DNA of 31,798 nucleotides from a virus. Under the pieces are notes generated by a model. The model was not told the origin of the DNA. It was given only the letters and a program-made list of their open reading frames with translations, and did no database searches. The position numbers and the translations under genes are program-made. The stretch spans positions 1 through 31,798 of the IMG/VR virus record IMGVR_UViG_3300043313_000670. One strand, 5' to 3'. This document shows positions 11,167-23,220 of the stretch, in pieces; position 1 is the stretch's first letter; each line of letters starts with the position of its first letter.

Positions 11167-11400
11167 GTGGCGAACATCACCTACAACAACAACTCCGCGA
11201 TCATCACCCCGACCGGATCGGAGGACATCCACGAGGTCGAGATCACGCGGGAGCAGGCCCGGCAGCTCGTCGACGAGTTTCCCGACATGCTCGACGATCT
11301 CATGACCGCGATCGATGTCGCCCAGGCCGAGACCGACGACGGCACGTCCGCCATCGTGCTCCTGGTCATCAAGCCTGACGCTGTTCCTTCTGCCGCTTGA
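11167..11400 (+). CDS. Hypothetical protein, 77 aa
   Basis: GTG start after an AAGGA Shine-Dalgarno. Short acidic protein with a strand-rich N terminus (NITYNNNSAIITPTGSEDIH), a helix (ITREQARQLVDEFPDMLDDLMTA, residues about 26-48) and a C-terminal strand (SAIVLLVIKPDA). No family is recognised. It is the last rightward gene, and its final 32 bases overlap the end of the convergent leftward gene, so no space remains for a separate terminator between the two transcription units. Confidence 0.8.
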   Translation: MANITYNNNSAIITPTGSEDIHEVEITREQARQLVDEFPDMLDDLMTAIDVAQAETDDGTSAIVLLVIKPDAVPSAA

Positions 11401-11596
11401 GCAGCTCGCGGCGCTCTGCGGCGAGCAAGCGTCTGACCTCGACGCTGTCGTAGCCCCAGTCCCATATGTGCCGCTTGCTCTCCGGGCTCAGTCTGTCGAT
11501 CAGGGCAAACTGAGCCCGAACCATTTGCGCGTATTGCTCCGCCTCGGATTCTGTCGCGTCGTGCGGATGTTTCGTTTCCAGAAGAGCCTGCTGCAT
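11369..11596 (-). CDS. Hypothetical protein at end of late operon, 75 aa
   Basis: Last gene of the leftward late operon. It is highly charged and helical throughout (SEAEQYAQMVRAQFALIDRL and VEVRRLLAAERRELLKRQKE), with a basic coiled-coil-like C terminus. It begins one base after the stop of the 37-residue membrane peptide gene and overlaps the rightward gene's end by 32 bases on the opposite strand. There is no signal peptide or membrane segment. Its place after endolysin suggests a lysis accessory or an unrelated late gene; no family is recognised. Confidence 0.65.
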   Translation of the reverse strand: MQQALLETKHPHDATESEAEQYAQMVRAQFALIDRLSPESKRHIWDWGYDSVEVRRLLAAERRELLKRQKEQRQA

Positions 11597-11597
11597 G

Positions 11598-11711
11598 TCA
11601 CCACCCCGAGCCGGTGGAAAGATAGGCGTCCAGGAACACCGAGGCTATGAGGCCCAGGATCGCGACCCCCGCAATCCACCACAGGCACCCGTAATCCGCG
11701 CCGCCGGGCAT
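11598..11711 (-). CDS. Small membrane peptide, 37 aa (possible lysis accessory)
   Basis: The ATG at 11711 overlaps the endolysin stop codon as TGATG. The peptide is MPGGADYGCLWWIAGVAILG followed by LIASVFLDAYLSTGSGW: one strong hydrophobic segment (about residues 8-30) and short polar ends, with the N terminus nearly uncharged. Its position in the lysis cassette and single membrane span fit a pinholin-like, spanin-like or holin-modulating peptide. It has no lipobox and is too short for a classical spanin. The coupling makes translation likely; the function is inferred. Confidence 0.65.
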   Translation of the reverse strand: MPGGADYGCLWWIAGVAILGLIASVFLDAYLSTGSGW

Positions 11712-12448
11712 CAGTCCCGGAACGCCTGCTCGACCTCGATGATCACATTCCGAGGCGTCGTGATGGTGATCTGGATCGTGATGGTCTCCTCGTCTCCGAC
11801 CTCCGGCGCGATCGCCACCGGCTCCGGGCTCCAGGCGAGATCGAGAGCCACCAGGAAGTCGCGGTGATAGCCCGCGATCAGATTCCCGATCGTCACTCCG
11901 TTCGACCAGCTCGGGACCTTGTTCTGATCCCCGTTGATGATGTTTCGCGCGCCGACCGGATCGTCGACCGTGTCGCTGAAGTGCCGCTCCAGGGTCTCGG
12001 GCTTGCCGTCCTTGACGCGGAACCAGCCCTGCTCGTGACCGAGGAAGCAGACCGCAGCCGCGACCCGCATGTCGAGCGCCTGCTCCGCGTGCCATTCCAT
12101 GTTGGTCGTGATGCCCGGGAACTGCGCGGCGATCTCCTTGTCGGCGCGCTGGTAGTTCTCCAGCCACGTGAGCTGCACGAACCCGCGTCCGTAATAGGTC
12201 TGGCCGGTCCTGGAATCCGGGACGCCATAGGCCATCCCCGATCCTTTGCCGTACTCCTCGATCGGCTGCATCGTCGACGCCGTCTCGTGCCGCGTGGTCG
12301 CCATGCAATAGGCGAGCCAGCGCAGATCGTAGCCTGCGCGATACTTCTCCCAGACGTTCAGGAACACGCCCATGCCGTCCACCTGGGACTGCGAGAGGCC
12401 GCCGAACTTCGGACGGATCGAGTCGTAGAAAACAGCGCGATCGAACAT
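11711..12448 (-). CDS. Endolysin, GH19 chitinase-like, 245 aa
   Basis: Cell-wall hydrolase that degrades host peptidoglycan at lysis. The core shows the GH19-like pattern: helix WLAYCMATTRHETASTMQPI with candidate catalytic E55 (HET) and E64 (PIEE), then TYYGRGFVQLTWLENYQRAD and a later INGDQNK segment. After about residue 200 an extra strand-rich tail (TITIQITITTPRNVIIEVEQ) may be a wall-binding or oligomerisation region. No signal peptide is present, so export should need a holin; the iron-permease-like two-helix protein encoded two genes earlier is a candidate. ATG 12448 is preferred to GTG 12451 because it overlaps the previous stop as TGATG. Confidence 0.9.
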   Translation of the reverse strand: MFDRAVFYDSIRPKFGGLSQSQVDGMGVFLNVWEKYRAGYDLRWLAYCMATTRHETASTMQPIEEYGKGSGMAYGVPDSRTGQTYYGRGFVQLTWLENYQRADKEIAAQFPGITTNMEWHAEQALDMRVAAAVCFLGHEQGWFRVKDGKPETLERHFSDTVDDPVGARNIINGDQNKVPSWSNGVTIGNLIAGYHRDFLVALDLAWSPEPVAIAPEVGDEETITIQITITTPRNVIIEVEQAFRD

Positions 12449-12675
12449 CACGGATTCTCCAGCCCGAGCTGCTTGCGGACCTCCGCACAGCTCTCCTTCA
12501 TTGACAGGAACTTCCCATCGGTGAACGTCACGACGCAGTTGACCGACGACGACAGCGTGCCGCCCGACTTCGGGACCGACAGGCTGATCACGTATTTCGG
12601 ATTGATTGCGACCTCCCGATTGTCGACCGTCTTCAACACGACCAACTCCAGCAATGCCAACACCACCCAGCTCAC
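12448..12675 (-). CDS. Hypothetical lysis-cassette protein, 75 aa
   Basis: GTG 12675 overlaps the previous stop as GTGA, and its own stop overlaps the endolysin start. It begins with a hydrophobic run (MSWVVLALLELVVL) that could be a signal anchor, though it is short. It then reads TVDNREVAINPKYVISLSVP and VNCVVTFTDGKFLSMKESCA. The alternation of NPxxIxSL, a strand, and GKxLxxKES recalls small FlbD-like beta proteins, a weak resemblance. Two cysteines (C47, C63) could pair if exported. The role is unknown. Confidence 0.75.
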   Translation of the reverse strand: MSWVVLALLELVVLKTVDNREVAINPKYVISLSVPKSGGTLSSSVNCVVTFTDGKFLSMKESCAEVRKQLGLENP

Positions 12676-12974
12676 TCGCGTATCTCCCGGATTTCGTCCG
12701 CCGTTCGTTCGTCGATGTGGCGGAATCTGTCGTCCGCCTCTGGCATAGCGCGCACCAGCTCGTCGAGCTTCACCTGGATCGCCAGCGTGTCCGCCGTCTG
12801 CGAGGACTGCAACACGAACAGCAGCAGGAGCGAGATGATCGAGATCATGAAGTTCGTCACGTCCAGGCCTGCCGTGGCCCATAGGACGGCCAGCAGGGCC
12901 GCCGACAGGATCGGGGCGAGCGGATGGGCCGCGTAAACCGCGACCGCCGTCCACGCCCTCGCCAGGGCTTTCAT
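12672..12974 (-). CDS. Low-affinity iron permease-like two-helix membrane protein (candidate holin)
   Basis: 100 residues from ATG 12974. Two transmembrane segments: PLAPILSAALLAVLWATAG (about 18-36) and FMISIISLLLLFVLQSSQ (about 42-59). The cytoplasmic tail TADTLAIQVKLDELVRAMPE is very like the C-terminal signature of the low-affinity iron permease family (PF04120), with its QN/SxQxxDTxAIQxKLDELIRA pattern. Located two genes before the endolysin and coupled to its neighbours by ATGA and GTGA overlaps. A two-span protein beside an endolysin normally suggests a holin; the family name implies ion transport. Topology and family are visible; a holin role is inferred. Confidence 0.85.
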   Translation of the reverse strand: MKALARAWTAVAVYAAHPLAPILSAALLAVLWATAGLDVTNFMISIISLLLLFVLQSSQTADTLAIQVKLDELVRAMPEADDRFRHIDERTADEIREIRE

Positions 12975-13327
12975 AGCTCGCCGATCTGCCTGAAGTAGAG
13001 GCTGTTGAGATCGGCGACATACGTGTCGAGCTGGAAGACCTCGAAGTTCTGCGGCACCAGCAGAGTCGGATCGTTCACGGCTGATCGCACTTCGCCATCC
13101 GTCGAGCACGCCACATAGGTCACGGTCGGGTCGAGGGTCTTCACGAACTCGTACCAGTCATCGCCCGCTGCATTGCGCAGGAACAGCGTGTTGACGAACA
13201 TCTGGTTGAGATGCCCCTGCGTGACCACGATGTCAGTGTCCTCCGGGTTCGGTGCCGGAGGCCGCATCGAGGGCGGCAGCTCAGTCGGTCGATAGGCTCT
13301 CCAGATTCCGAGACTGGTGGCTGTCAT
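12971..13327 (-). CDS. Hypothetical protein between fibre and lysis genes, 118 aa
   Basis: Starts at ATG 13327, three bases after the distal fibre gene, and overlaps the membrane protein gene as ATGA. It has a Pro-rich N terminus (RPTELPPSMRPPAPNPEDTD), then a globular-looking region with TQGHLNQMFVNTLFLRNAAG and DDWYEFVKTLDPTVTYVACS. There is no signal peptide or membrane helix. By position it could be a fibre-associated or fibre-assembly protein, a small structural protein, or part of the lysis block. No family is recognised and no diagnostic residue pattern is visible. Confidence 0.78.
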   Translation of the reverse strand: MTATSLGIWRAYRPTELPPSMRPPAPNPEDTDIVVTQGHLNQMFVNTLFLRNAAGDDWYEFVKTLDPTVTYVACSTDGEVRSAVNDPTLLVPQNFEVFQLDTYVADLNSLYFRQIGEL

Positions 13328-18467: not shown

Positions 18468-20515
18468 TATTCGTCACCCCCGTAGCTCTGCACCGCGCCG
18501 TAGGCTCCGGCTGTCCCGGGCCTGATTCGCTTCAGCTTGCTCTTCCGGTATGTCTCGTCCAAGGCCTTCAGGAAGGCCATACGGTCCGCCGGGACCTCGT
18601 TGTGGAGCCGGGCCATCCCGAGGTTCTCAGCCTTGGCAGCGGCCTCCGCACCCGATCCGGCTAGTCCCCTATACATCCGATCGAGCAGCCCGATGCCGAC
18701 CTGTCCGAGATTCGGGTAGGACGAGAAGGGAGGCTGCACCGCAGCCCCCACGTCGACCGGGTTGGTGACCTCCTTCTGGCCTGCGAGGCGGCCTGCCGTG
18801 GCCGACTGCTGATCCAGGCGCTGGAGCGTGCCCTTCTGCCGCGAGAGCCCCTCGATGCGCTTATAGAACGCCTCCGCCTCGGAGTCCCCGAGGAGCAGCC
18901 CCATCTTCTGCCGCCCGTAGTTCGAGCGCAGATTGCGCATCGCCGCCTCGGGCATCTCGGTCCCGCCCATGAGCTGGTCGATCGAGTCCCTGGCCCCCAT
19001 CCGCAGCGCGGTCTTCTCCTCGTCAGACATCCGCCGGAGCTGGCGCGCGAACTCGTCGGGCCGGGTCGACCGCTTGAACAGGTTCTCGCCCTCGTGCCGG
19101 GCCTCCAGAATCTGGGAATCGGTCCGGTAGGCCTTGTTCGCCGCGTGGTAGGCCGACTCGCCCTTCTGGTTTCTGGTGGCATCCTCGAGAACGTCGACCA
19201 GGGAATTGCGCACGTCGATCAGGGGGCCGGGGTTGCCGCCCGCCCTGATCTTCTCGCCGATCATGTCGTCCAGGTTCTCCTTGGTCGTCTTCAGCGACTG
19301 GAAGTCGGTCCGGTTGGTCAGCGCGCCCCGGATGTTCAGCAGCTCGCGCTCGTTCGGCAGGAGGTCGGTGGCATCCGCCGCGACCGAGGTCGGGAGCCGC
19401 TTCTCGATCGCCGTGACGATCGGCGTCGTGTCGATCTTCTTGCCCGCCGCCGCAGCTTCCGCCTCGCCATAGAGCCGGTTGGCTTCGTTCCGCCGGGCCT
19501 GCCGGACCATGTCGGTGTCGTCGGCATAGTTCGCGGCCTTGGGCTCGACATACTGGTCGAGAGCCTGGGAGAGGCTGGAGTTGTCGCCCTGGAGCTGGGA
19601 GCGCCTGCGCTCCAGCATCTCGCGCATCACGCCCTGCTGGGGTCCCGGCGTCGTCAGGAGCGCCTCACCCTGGCCCCGCAGGCGGTCGGAGAGGTCGGTG
19701 AGGGTCGCCTCCGGCCCGACTTGCTGGAACTGCCGATAGGTCGGGACCGCGCCGCCCGTGTCCTCGATCGCGCCCGCGACCTTGGCCGCCGACGATGTGG
19801 GGACCGTCCCCACACCCGGGATATTCGCGGTCCGGCCCGCCTGATTCGGTCCCATGGCTCCCGAGACCGACATGGACGTGCCGCCGCCCGCGATGGCTCT
19901 GGCCGCCCCTTCCGCCTCCGGGAAATACTTCTCGGCGAGCTGGCCCGCCAGCTCGGAGGCCGCGCCCGGCGCGAGCCCCTGCGCGATCAGCTCCTTGCCG
20001 ACCGCGACGATCGCCTCGGCCTTCGTGAGCCCCTTGACCGCCATGCCCGCAGGCAGGATCGCCCCGCCCGTGAACTCGCCGATCGTCCCGGCGAACTTTC
20101 CCGCCGTCGTCTTCGGTTCGTAGTCGACGCCCGGCACGAGCCCCGTCGCGGCTGCATCCCGGACCGCGTCGGCGGAGGTCGGCGCGTGGACGTCCTGCTC
20201 GTAGCTCTTGCGCAGCTCCTGGCCGGACGCCTCGCCCCGGGTCCGGTTGCGCACCCAGATCGCCGCCTCTTCGAGCATGCGCTGGATGTCGCCCGGCATG
20301 CCGGGAATCCCGACGACGCCCTTCGCGATGCCCGACAGGCCCGACTTCGCCACGTCCGCGCCGATGCCCGCCGTGTCCTGCGGAATCTCCCGCAGGGGCT
20401 GACGCCCGGTCGGGGTCGTCGTCGGCTGCTGGGATGGCGGCAGCGGCGCAGCCGGGGCTCCCGGCACCTGGGGAGCCTGCTGCGGGTCGTTGGGGTCGTA
20501 GAGGAGCTTGCCCAT
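18467..20515 (-). CDS. Large internal virion/ejection-type protein, 682 aa
   Basis: Second of the large proteins following the lytic-transglycosylase protein. The N terminus is Pro/Gln-rich; residues about 55-200 are Gly/Ala-rich with hydrophobic patches (GLSGIAKGVVGIPGMPGDIQ, AILPAGMAVKGLTKAEAIVA). The rest is long, charged and helical (MREMLERRRSQLQGDNSSLS, LRRMSDEEKTALRMGARDSI), ending in a basic tail. This composition and place match ejection proteins that are packed in the head and form the DNA channel across the envelope in P22-like and T7-like phages. No enzymatic motif is visible. TAATG overlaps link it to both neighbours. A partial CTAG motif lies near its 3-prime end (18654-18666). 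Confidence 0.7.
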   Translation of the reverse strand: MGKLLYDPNDPQQAPQVPGAPAAPLPPSQQPTTTPTGRQPLREIPQDTAGIGADVAKSGLSGIAKGVVGIPGMPGDIQRMLEEAAIWVRNRTRGEASGQELRKSYEQDVHAPTSADAVRDAAATGLVPGVDYEPKTTAGKFAGTIGEFTGGAILPAGMAVKGLTKAEAIVAVGKELIAQGLAPGAASELAGQLAEKYFPEAEGAARAIAGGGTSMSVSGAMGPNQAGRTANIPGVGTVPTSSAAKVAGAIEDTGGAVPTYRQFQQVGPEATLTDLSDRLRGQGEALLTTPGPQQGVMREMLERRRSQLQGDNSSLSQALDQYVEPKAANYADDTDMVRQARRNEANRLYGEAEAAAAGKKIDTTPIVTAIEKRLPTSVAADATDLLPNERELLNIRGALTNRTDFQSLKTTKENLDDMIGEKIRAGGNPGPLIDVRNSLVDVLEDATRNQKGESAYHAANKAYRTDSQILEARHEGENLFKRSTRPDEFARQLRRMSDEEKTALRMGARDSIDQLMGGTEMPEAAMRNLRSNYGRQKMGLLLGDSEAEAFYKRIEGLSRQKGTLQRLDQQSATAGRLAGQKEVTNPVDVGAAVQPPFSSYPNLGQVGIGLLDRMYRGLAGSGAEAAAKAENLGMARLHNEVPADRMAFLKALDETYRKSKLKRIRPGTAGAYGAVQSYGGDE

Positions 20516-23220
20516 TACTTGCCCGCCTTCGAGCCGTCGCTCTGGTAGACCTTGCCGTCCGGCGTCACGTAGACCGACCCGGTGGGCAGGGCGTCACCCG
20601 CCTCCATGGAGGGGACCGAGACGGGGGTCTTCATGGTCCCCTGGACCCTCGCGTTCGAGGAATCCTTGAACTCCGTCGCCTTGGCGGGTTCGCCGAACGT
20701 CGGGTCCGAGAAGTAGTTCGTCGCGCCCTTCTGGCCGTCCTCGGACAAGCCTGCGGTCTTGGCCCGGTTGCGGATGCCGTTGACGAAGCCCTTGGTCTCG
20801 CCCCACCGGGACTGACGCTGGGCCTCCGCCGCGTTCACGAAGTCGGCCTTCATCTGCGAGGTCAGGGGAGCACCGCCGTTCAGCCGGGCGACCATCCCTT
20901 GAGCCCAGCCGGGAATGCCGCCCGAGCTGGTGATCATCCCCTGCTCGTTCTGGGTGACCGTGGACGAGGGGTCGATCGCCTTCAGCACCTGGATGACACC
21001 GTTGATGTCGCCCGCCGCCGTGCCCTGCCCGAAGGCCGCCCGCATGGCGACGTTCGCCTCGGAGAGCGCCCGGAAGTTCTTCACGGTCGGATTGCTCTCG
21101 AACTGGGTCGCGAGCTGGTTCTCGCGCTCGAACGACTTCTCCTCGCGCTCGTCGAGGGGCTCCAACTGCGGGCCACGATCGGACTGGCGCACTCTCCAGG
21201 TCCGCTGGTCGCCCTCGGGAATCCCGAACTCCTTCCGGCGGGGATCGGTCTTGGAGAGGATCACGTCGCCGTTCGGGCGCGTGCCGGTGGTGTTGCCCAC
21301 CGGGACCGCCTCGCCGGTCACCTTGTTGACGCGGATCAGCCCGCCGGAGCCGTCCTTCTCGACCGACCAGTCCTGCGCCCGGCCCGTGGCCGAGCCCGCG
21401 ACAGGCTCCGCCGTGCCGGTGACCGGGTTCGTGCGGAACAACTGCCCGCCGACCTCGGTGAAGCCGTAGCCCTTCGCCCCGGTGCCGACGCCCTGGCCGG
21501 TGAGGTAGTTCTGGACCGCCGTGATCGTCGAGGCGTCACCCGAGCGGATGGCGGACGCCAGCATGGCGCGCTGATTGTCCGTCAGATTCCCGCCGACCGG
21601 GCTCGGCGGCACGCCATAGCCGCCGCCGCCCTGGAGCCCAGGCTGGCCGCCGCCGCCCGCGATCGGAGCTGGTTGGGGCTGCGGCTGCGGCTGCGGCTGG
21701 GGCTGGGGCTGCGGCTGCGGGGTCGGTTGGACAGGCGGCGGACCCGCAGGCATCGGCGAGCCGGGATAAGCCGACGTCGTCGAGTTGGGCGGGACAGGGA
21801 CCGCCGAGCCGGGATCGAGGTCGCCCGCCGGGCTCGGGAAGAGCGGCTGGTTGTTCCCCGTCACGGTCGGAGGCGCAGGAGGGGGCGCAGGGGGCTGCTG
21901 CGGAGGCGCAGGAGCGGCCTGAGGGGCTGGGCCGGGCGGTTGGGCCGCCTGGGGTGCCGGAGCCGCCTGTGGGCCTCCCTGCGGGCCTGCCTGCGAGGCT
22001 CGGGACAGCGCCTCGACCGCCTGCTGGCGCGTGGCCGGGTCGATCGTCGGGTCGTTGACGATCGCCGTCAGATTCTGGAAGACCTCCGGCGGCAGGCCGT
22101 TGGGGGTCGGCTGCTGCGGCTGGAGCTGGTCGCCGCCGGGACCGCCCGCGAGAGGTCCGCCGCCCGAGCCCTGGAGCTGCGCCTGGGGTCCCGGCCCGAC
22201 CGGAGCCGAGGGCGAGATGTTGGGATCGCCACGCGGCATGACCGGCGGCGGCAGGCCCTGCTGGCGATTGCGCTCGACCTGTTCCTCGTAGGTGAGCTGG
22301 GAGTCCGGCGGACCCGGAAGCGGAGCCAGGGGAGCTGCGGCAGCGCCCGGACCCTGGCCCGCGCCAGGACGGTTCTGCGCGCCGCCGACGCCACCCGGCA
22401 CCGCTGGCAGGGGAGCCGCCGCCTGACCGGGAAACCGCCGCGTCCACTTGGTCGCGAACTCGCCCGCCGTCATGTTCGGATTGCCGCCGTTCACCGCGAT
22501 GTTGCGCGGGCTCGTGACGTCGCCCGCCCGAGCGTTCGGGTTCTTGAGGAGCGCCAGGGCACCGCCCGCGCCCTGCTGGTGGGCAAGGTACAGCTCGCCG
22601 TCCGTCACGGGCCGCCCGAGCCCGGATTCCAGGATGCGCTTGTTGTCGAGGGCGAGCCGGGCCGCCGCGTCGACGTTCGCCTGGGGATCGCGCCGGTCGC
22701 CCTGGCCGTACTTCGCCCAGGTCCCCTTGGTGAACTGGGTCAGCCCTGTTGCCCCGGTCGAGGACACCGCGTTCGGGTTCCCCGACGACTCGATCTCGAT
22801 CAGCTTGTTCATGTAGCTCGGCGAGAGGCCGTACTTCGAGGTCGTGGTGTCGACCAGCGTCTGAAGCTCGGCAGGCAGCGGCTTGACATAGGTCTCCTGG
22901 GGCGAGGCGGGCTGGGGCTGGCCCGGATTGCCGCCGCCGCCGGACAGGCTGTTCGTGCCGCCGCCGCCGTAGATGCCGCCGGGACCGCCGAGAGCCCGAG
23001 CTGCCGCGCCCGGATCGTTCGCCAGCCTGCGCGCCGCATCCTCGCGGGCCGCGTGCGAATAGCTGTCCTTGTAGGCCGCGTTGTACTGCCCGTAGATGCT
23101 GCCCAGGCCCTCCTGCATCATCTTCGAGACGTCTTTCGGCCCCCAGTCCGAGGTCGTCGGACGGATGCCCGCGAAGGCCTGGACAGGCCCGCCGCCAAAG
23201 ATCGGAACGTTGATCGGCAT
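20515..23220 (-). CDS. Internal virion protein with lytic transglycosylase domain, 901 aa
   Basis: Residues about 120-235 form an SLT-type domain: YGLSPSYMNKLIEIESSGNP with catalytic E144, then NAVSSTGATGLTQFTKGTWA. Such domains cut peptidoglycan locally so that DNA can pass during entry. A long low-complexity region follows (about 265-560), rich in Pro, Gln, Gly and Ala and including a PQ repeat tract. A C-terminal part (GLIRVNKVTGEAVPVGNTTG, FERENQLATQFESNPTVKNF) is probably helical and structural. The neighbours are other internal proteins, supporting an ejection role rather than lysis. The length is much greater than a free lytic enzyme. Function of the domain is firm; virion location is inferred. 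Confidence 0.87.
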   Translation of the reverse strand: MPINVPIFGGGPVQAFAGIRPTTSDWGPKDVSKMMQEGLGSIYGQYNAAYKDSYSHAAREDAARRLANDPGAAARALGGPGGIYGGGGTNSLSGGGGNPGQPQPASPQETYVKPLPAELQTLVDTTTSKYGLSPSYMNKLIEIESSGNPNAVSSTGATGLTQFTKGTWAKYGQGDRRDPQANVDAAARLALDNKRILESGLGRPVTDGELYLAHQQGAGGALALLKNPNARAGDVTSPRNIAVNGGNPNMTAGEFATKWTRRFPGQAAAPLPAVPGGVGGAQNRPGAGQGPGAAAAPLAPLPGPPDSQLTYEEQVERNRQQGLPPPVMPRGDPNISPSAPVGPGPQAQLQGSGGGPLAGGPGGDQLQPQQPTPNGLPPEVFQNLTAIVNDPTIDPATRQQAVEALSRASQAGPQGGPQAAPAPQAAQPPGPAPQAAPAPPQQPPAPPPAPPTVTGNNQPLFPSPAGDLDPGSAVPVPPNSTTSAYPGSPMPAGPPPVQPTPQPQPQPQPQPQPQPQPAPIAGGGGQPGLQGGGGYGVPPSPVGGNLTDNQRAMLASAIRSGDASTITAVQNYLTGQGVGTGAKGYGFTEVGGQLFRTNPVTGTAEPVAGSATGRAQDWSVEKDGSGGLIRVNKVTGEAVPVGNTTGTRPNGDVILSKTDPRRKEFGIPEGDQRTWRVRQSDRGPQLEPLDEREEKSFERENQLATQFESNPTVKNFRALSEANVAMRAAFGQGTAAGDINGVIQVLKAIDPSSTVTQNEQGMITSSGGIPGWAQGMVARLNGGAPLTSQMKADFVNAAEAQRQSRWGETKGFVNGIRNRAKTAGLSEDGQKGATNYFSDPTFGEPAKATEFKDSSNARVQGTMKTPVSVPSMEAGDALPTGSVYVTPDGKVYQSDGSKAGK
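21677..21718. repeat. Hexanucleotide tandem repeat (GGCTGC/GGCTGG)7
   Basis: Seven consecutive GGCTGS hexamers on the plus strand, encoding a Gln-Pro tract on the minus strand inside the lytic-transglycosylase protein. It is in phase with codons, so copy-number change would alter linker length without a frameshift. Confidence 0.85.

Follow-up and report, generated by a model that had tools for sequence, protein, structure and literature searches.

A PF04120 membrane protein with a shortened inter-span loop in a phage endolysin cassette: lysis protein or passenger?

What does a protein named for iron transport do in the late operon of a phage, two genes away from an endolysin? The window in which this question arises is an entire IMG/VR record of 31,798 bases. 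It is probably a fragment, and neither a portal nor a large terminase was identified in it. The first-pass annotation assigned a 100-residue protein at positions 12672-12974 to the low-affinity iron permease family (Pfam accession PF04120), a name that derives from the fungal transporter Fet4, and placed it in the holin position of a lysis cassette: either the family name is misleading and the fold is that of a holin, or the phage has recruited an ion-permeation protein to trigger lysis.

The gene itself, its length of 100 residues, and its two membrane spans were borne out; the strand, which had not been given, is minus, with an ATG at 12974 and a stop at 12672. The product, which begins MKALARAW and ends EIREIRE, matches the PF04120 profile at 50.6 bits (E = 2.2e-13), twice the curated gathering score of 25 bits, and phrog_3485, a "membrane protein" family that PHROGs places in its moron category, with E = 2.5e-5. 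The family signature is present as DTLAIQVKLDEL; W, G, N, F, and QxSQ of both spans are followed by DxxAIQxKLDEL, and all seven residues that are invariant among aligned PF04120 members are kept. GC content by codon position (0.65/0.43/0.87) follows the pattern of the neighboring genes, as expected of coding DNA of this genome. Hydropathy and an AlphaFold model (helices 20-35 and 39-76; mean pLDDT 84) both give two spans, and the model has a long, charged cytoplasmic helix; the packing of the protein is uncertain because the pTM is only 0.41. Judging from the charges, both termini would lie inside. No holin profile of PHROGs matched the protein at E 0.1, a fold search of BFVD and the PDB returned no usable match, and a profile search of PDB sequences gave matches at chance level only.

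The cassette is part of a leftward late operon (minus strand throughout) that runs from the capsid (phrog_334) through head closure and tail genes to the tail fiber. After the tail fiber come a tail fiber assembly-like protein of 118 residues (12971..13327; phrog_136, E 3e-10), the PF04120 gene, a 75-residue protein with a hydrophobic N-terminus and an FlbD-like domain (12448..12675; FlbD E 0.04, below the cut-off), a GH19-like endolysin of 245 residues (11711..12448), a 37-residue protein with a single span (11598..11711), and, as the last gene of the run, a soluble 75-residue open reading frame (11369..11596). The description of the PF04120 gene as lying two genes before the endolysin in a coupled cassette therefore holds: an ATGA overlap joins it to the gene directly upstream, its stop overlaps the GTG start of the 75-residue FlbD-like gene (GTGA), and TGATG-type overlaps lead into the endolysin and into the 37-residue gene, which starts at the endolysin stop. 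A promoter scan of the cassette found nothing.

The endolysin matches phrog_181 ("endolysin", E = 6.9e-20) and groups with that family as well as with GH19-like lysins from phages of Alphaproteobacteria and Acinetobacter. It has neither a transmembrane nor a SAR segment, and thus a membrane-opening partner is expected. The only spans around it belong to the 100-residue protein, the 37-residue protein, and, weakly, the N-terminus of the 75-residue FlbD-like protein. No spanin genes were recognized in 11369-13327 (minus strand); the endolysin relatives come from phages of Gram-negative hosts, and spanin genes could be missing or could be located beyond the ends of the fragment. A search with the 682-residue protein of this phage found no near relatives. 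Elsewhere in the window, a tail-region protein of 901 residues (20515-23220, minus strand) carries a transglycosylase domain (phrog_4067, phrog_2013) and probably serves cell entry.

The PF04120 protein differs from its family in the loop that joins its two spans: W and QxSQ are 24 residues apart, as against 33 in 73 of 79 cellular loci (36 in one other; not measured in five). About nine residues of the loop that PF04120 members have in common, GPxFxxSDTWQLxINT, are gone, and in an alignment of 19 members the window protein is the sole row without the GPxFxxSDTWQ stretch. The window protein is therefore a divergent member, and the loop is not needed to pass the profile cut-off. No relatives sharing the short loop were found: viral contigs and the 79 genome loci yielded members with the ordinary loop only. 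The trimming suggests a changed function. The resulting tight hairpin resembles a two-span holin, although the trimming by itself proves nothing.

We then asked where membrane proteins sit around related endolysins. Eighty relatives were collected with their flanks, and 64 non-redundant loci, including the window and a second PF04120-bearing locus, L019, were compared. Of the 64, 46 have a membrane protein starting close to the endolysin stop and 10 have one ending close to the endolysin start, which makes the position after the endolysin the most conserved slot for a membrane protein. In the window, this slot is held by the 37-residue protein, and in four close relatives (L030, L034, L035, and L036) by similar one-span proteins of 31 to 54 residues. 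Thus, "holin position" was apt in that the PF04120 gene lies within the endolysin cassette, but the conserved slot is a different one, and the window holds two holin candidates. The first-pass annotation had counted a separate holin elsewhere in the genome against its proposal, and within this fragment the 37-residue protein right after the endolysin is such a candidate. Other holins may lie outside the record, because it is a fragment without an identified portal or large terminase. Downstream proteins in the relatives also include a family of about 100 residues with three spans (PPPxPKLLDYPASxG...TIPTDEI) that starts at the endolysin stop (L050:4170-4472; similar in L051, L059, L062, L085, and L098); it is likely a class I holin, its similarity to PHROG holins being weak.

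No PF04120 gene was found among the 80 loci of the window endolysin's relatives. A second set of 80 loci, gathered from the L019 endolysin, contained the family in L019 itself only, so that the window and L019 are the only cases with a GH19-like endolysin among about 130 non-redundant cassettes. What this second set does contain, in 27 of 67 loci and no more than 2 kb from the endolysin, is a two-span protein of about 70 residues; a two-span protein of 65 to 75 residues occurs in 3-4 of 62 loci of the other endolysin group. This family (L281:3663-3887, L283:3684-3884, L274:2492-2710, L272:2804-3004, L019:1711-1923) has no confident PHROG or NCBIfam match, and one member weakly resembles Thivi_2564, below the cut-off; it is likely an unannotated holin family. 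It is absent from the window, which has the PF04120 two-span protein. A common origin of the two was considered and rejected, as no homology is detectable, and L019 has both.

The 75-residue FlbD-like protein also recurs. Homologs lie near the same endolysin type in eight other loci and adjoin the endolysin start in L281, L283, and L295; it is a true companion of the cassette. The family, of about 78 residues (hydrophobic N-terminus, INPxxV ... DGxxxxxxExCxxV; window 12448-12675 on the minus strand, L281:2765-3004, L283:2768-3004, L274:2256-2495, L295:1177-1443), recurs near GH19-like endolysins, and several members overlap the endolysin start. L283 has FlbD-like, endolysin, one-span, and two-span genes, the same kinds of parts as the window in another order.

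Beyond these cassettes, a first round of alignment searches yielded 26 viral PF04120 loci and a later one 80; the comparison drew on 75 that were non-redundant. A tblastn search with three members against 50,697 phage records gave no match. The genes found most often nearby encode large terminases (clusters of 9 and 8 loci) and the replication proteins DNA polymerase or primase (9 and 7 loci), and the identities of representatives were confirmed. The first-pass annotation had proposed a survey of how often the family neighbors phage endolysins. Fifty PF04120 records, most of them fragments, were compared with GH108, GH24, phrog_181, and amidase profiles, and a lysin was found in eight. In those eight records, the PF04120 gene lies within 2 kb of the lysin in three (L019, L148, and L013) versus 1.2 expected (P = 0.09), which is not significant. 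L019, which is independent of the window, has the order PF04120, two-span protein, GH19-like endolysin, and the gene adjoining its endolysin is this other two-span protein, not PF04120. In L013, PF04120 is followed by a 243-residue protein with a C-terminal span and then by an amidase; in L148, a GH108 lysin is about 1.1 kb away from PF04120. In G043, G047, and G048 the distance is 7 to 28 kb. A phrog_1356 holin (DUF7940) adjoins the lysozyme of G043; in G020, PF04120 lies about 3 kb away and the phage has a lysozyme and Rz-like spanins of its own; and in G048, judged by reading only, the lysozyme is followed by a gene with a span and then by a lipoprotein-like one. Since viral members lie mostly near terminase or replication genes and some carriers have separate lysis sets, PF04120 is not a general holin family. 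Small two-span genes directly precede PF04120 genes in L018 (7790-7960) and L269 (1140-1355), and the family may travel with such genes in phages.

Cellular homologs come chiefly from Bradyrhizobiaceae and other Proteobacteria. Bacterial members have about 100-150 residues and two spans, and functional evidence for them was not found in the literature searched; nor was any literature joining the family name with phage and holin. The suspicion that the family name misleads is therefore probably right, whereas the idea that PF04120 proteins in general have a holin fold is not supported, given the neighborhoods and separate holin or spanin genes described above. Recruitment of a PF04120 protein for lysis in this one phage is possible.

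Our best reading, which we hold tentatively, is that the protein is a two-span lysis protein, either a holin or a holin partner of the 37-residue peptide. It would be made late, alongside the endolysin, as a small inner-membrane hairpin with both termini inside and a long cytoplasmic helix, and would act like a class II holin or as a two-span partner or timer of the one-span protein; the opening of the membrane by these proteins would let the soluble endolysin out of the cytoplasm. The role is plausible in view of the gene overlaps that tie the gene to the endolysin, the order in L019, and the loss of the loop, and because related cassettes often hold a two-span (65-75 residues) or three-span protein. 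Class II holins such as the phage 21 pinholin are likewise small, with two spans and, by charges, the same topology, and sit in endolysin cassettes; they differ in that no sequence or profile match connects them to the window protein, and pinholins require SAR endolysins (PMC13056207), whereas the window endolysin is soluble. F1 mycobacteriophages provide a precedent: a two-span and a one-span protein from a single lysis cassette (LysF1a/LysF1b) jointly govern lysis (PMC13056207), although the host is Gram-positive and the protein families are others. Against a lysis role stand the rarity of PF04120 beside GH19-like endolysins, the non-significant proximity to lysins, the separate lysis sets elsewhere, and the failure to match a holin profile, the two-span cassette family, or a known fold. 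The seven invariant residues are also kept, as if the ancestral function persisted. A stronger version, that this phage has made a holin, or an essential partner of one, out of the widespread cellular PF04120 family, helped by the trimming of the loop and in place of the unrelated two-span protein of related cassettes, is doubtful.

Almost as likely as a lysis role is that the gene is a passenger ("moron") that came from the alphaproteobacterial pool, entered the late operon, and retains its cellular role, perhaps in membrane or ion stress or in exclusion of other phages. The holin would then be the 37-residue protein, which occupies the slot most often filled by a membrane protein in related loci, or would lie outside the fragment. 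The cellular distribution, the terminase and replication neighbors, the PHROGs category, and the separate lysis genes of G043 and G020 all speak for a passenger. On the other hand, coupling by overlap on both sides, with no promoter of its own in sight, makes the gene part of the late cassette; the shortened loop hints at a changed function; and L019 repeats the gene order. As the cassette encodes two candidate membrane proteins, the protein could also be an antiholin or lysis inhibitor that delays triggering by the 37-residue holin and forms no holes itself; the long charged helix of the model could be regulatory, and the two-span protein of F1 mycobacteriophages needs its one-span partner for efficient lysis (PMC13056207). 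This is improbable, and the same paper states that its two-span protein is not a pure antiholin. It is very unlikely that the protein is a functional permease for iron or divalent metals, brought along as an auxiliary metabolic gene, since only the Pfam name suggests it; the late position between tail and endolysin genes, the mere two spans, the largely lost family-conserved loop, and the literature searched, in which no functional evidence for bacterial members was found, all argue against it.

Should the protein have no part in lysis, the locus would caution against naming a membrane protein near an endolysin a holin from position alone, as the 37-residue protein may already be the holin of this cassette. 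If it does work in lysis, a family now labeled iron permease would gain a holin-type role, and a bacterial family without known function would gain a simple lysis assay. If the conversion into a holin is true, it would hint that the cellular PF04120 family itself makes or gates membrane pores.
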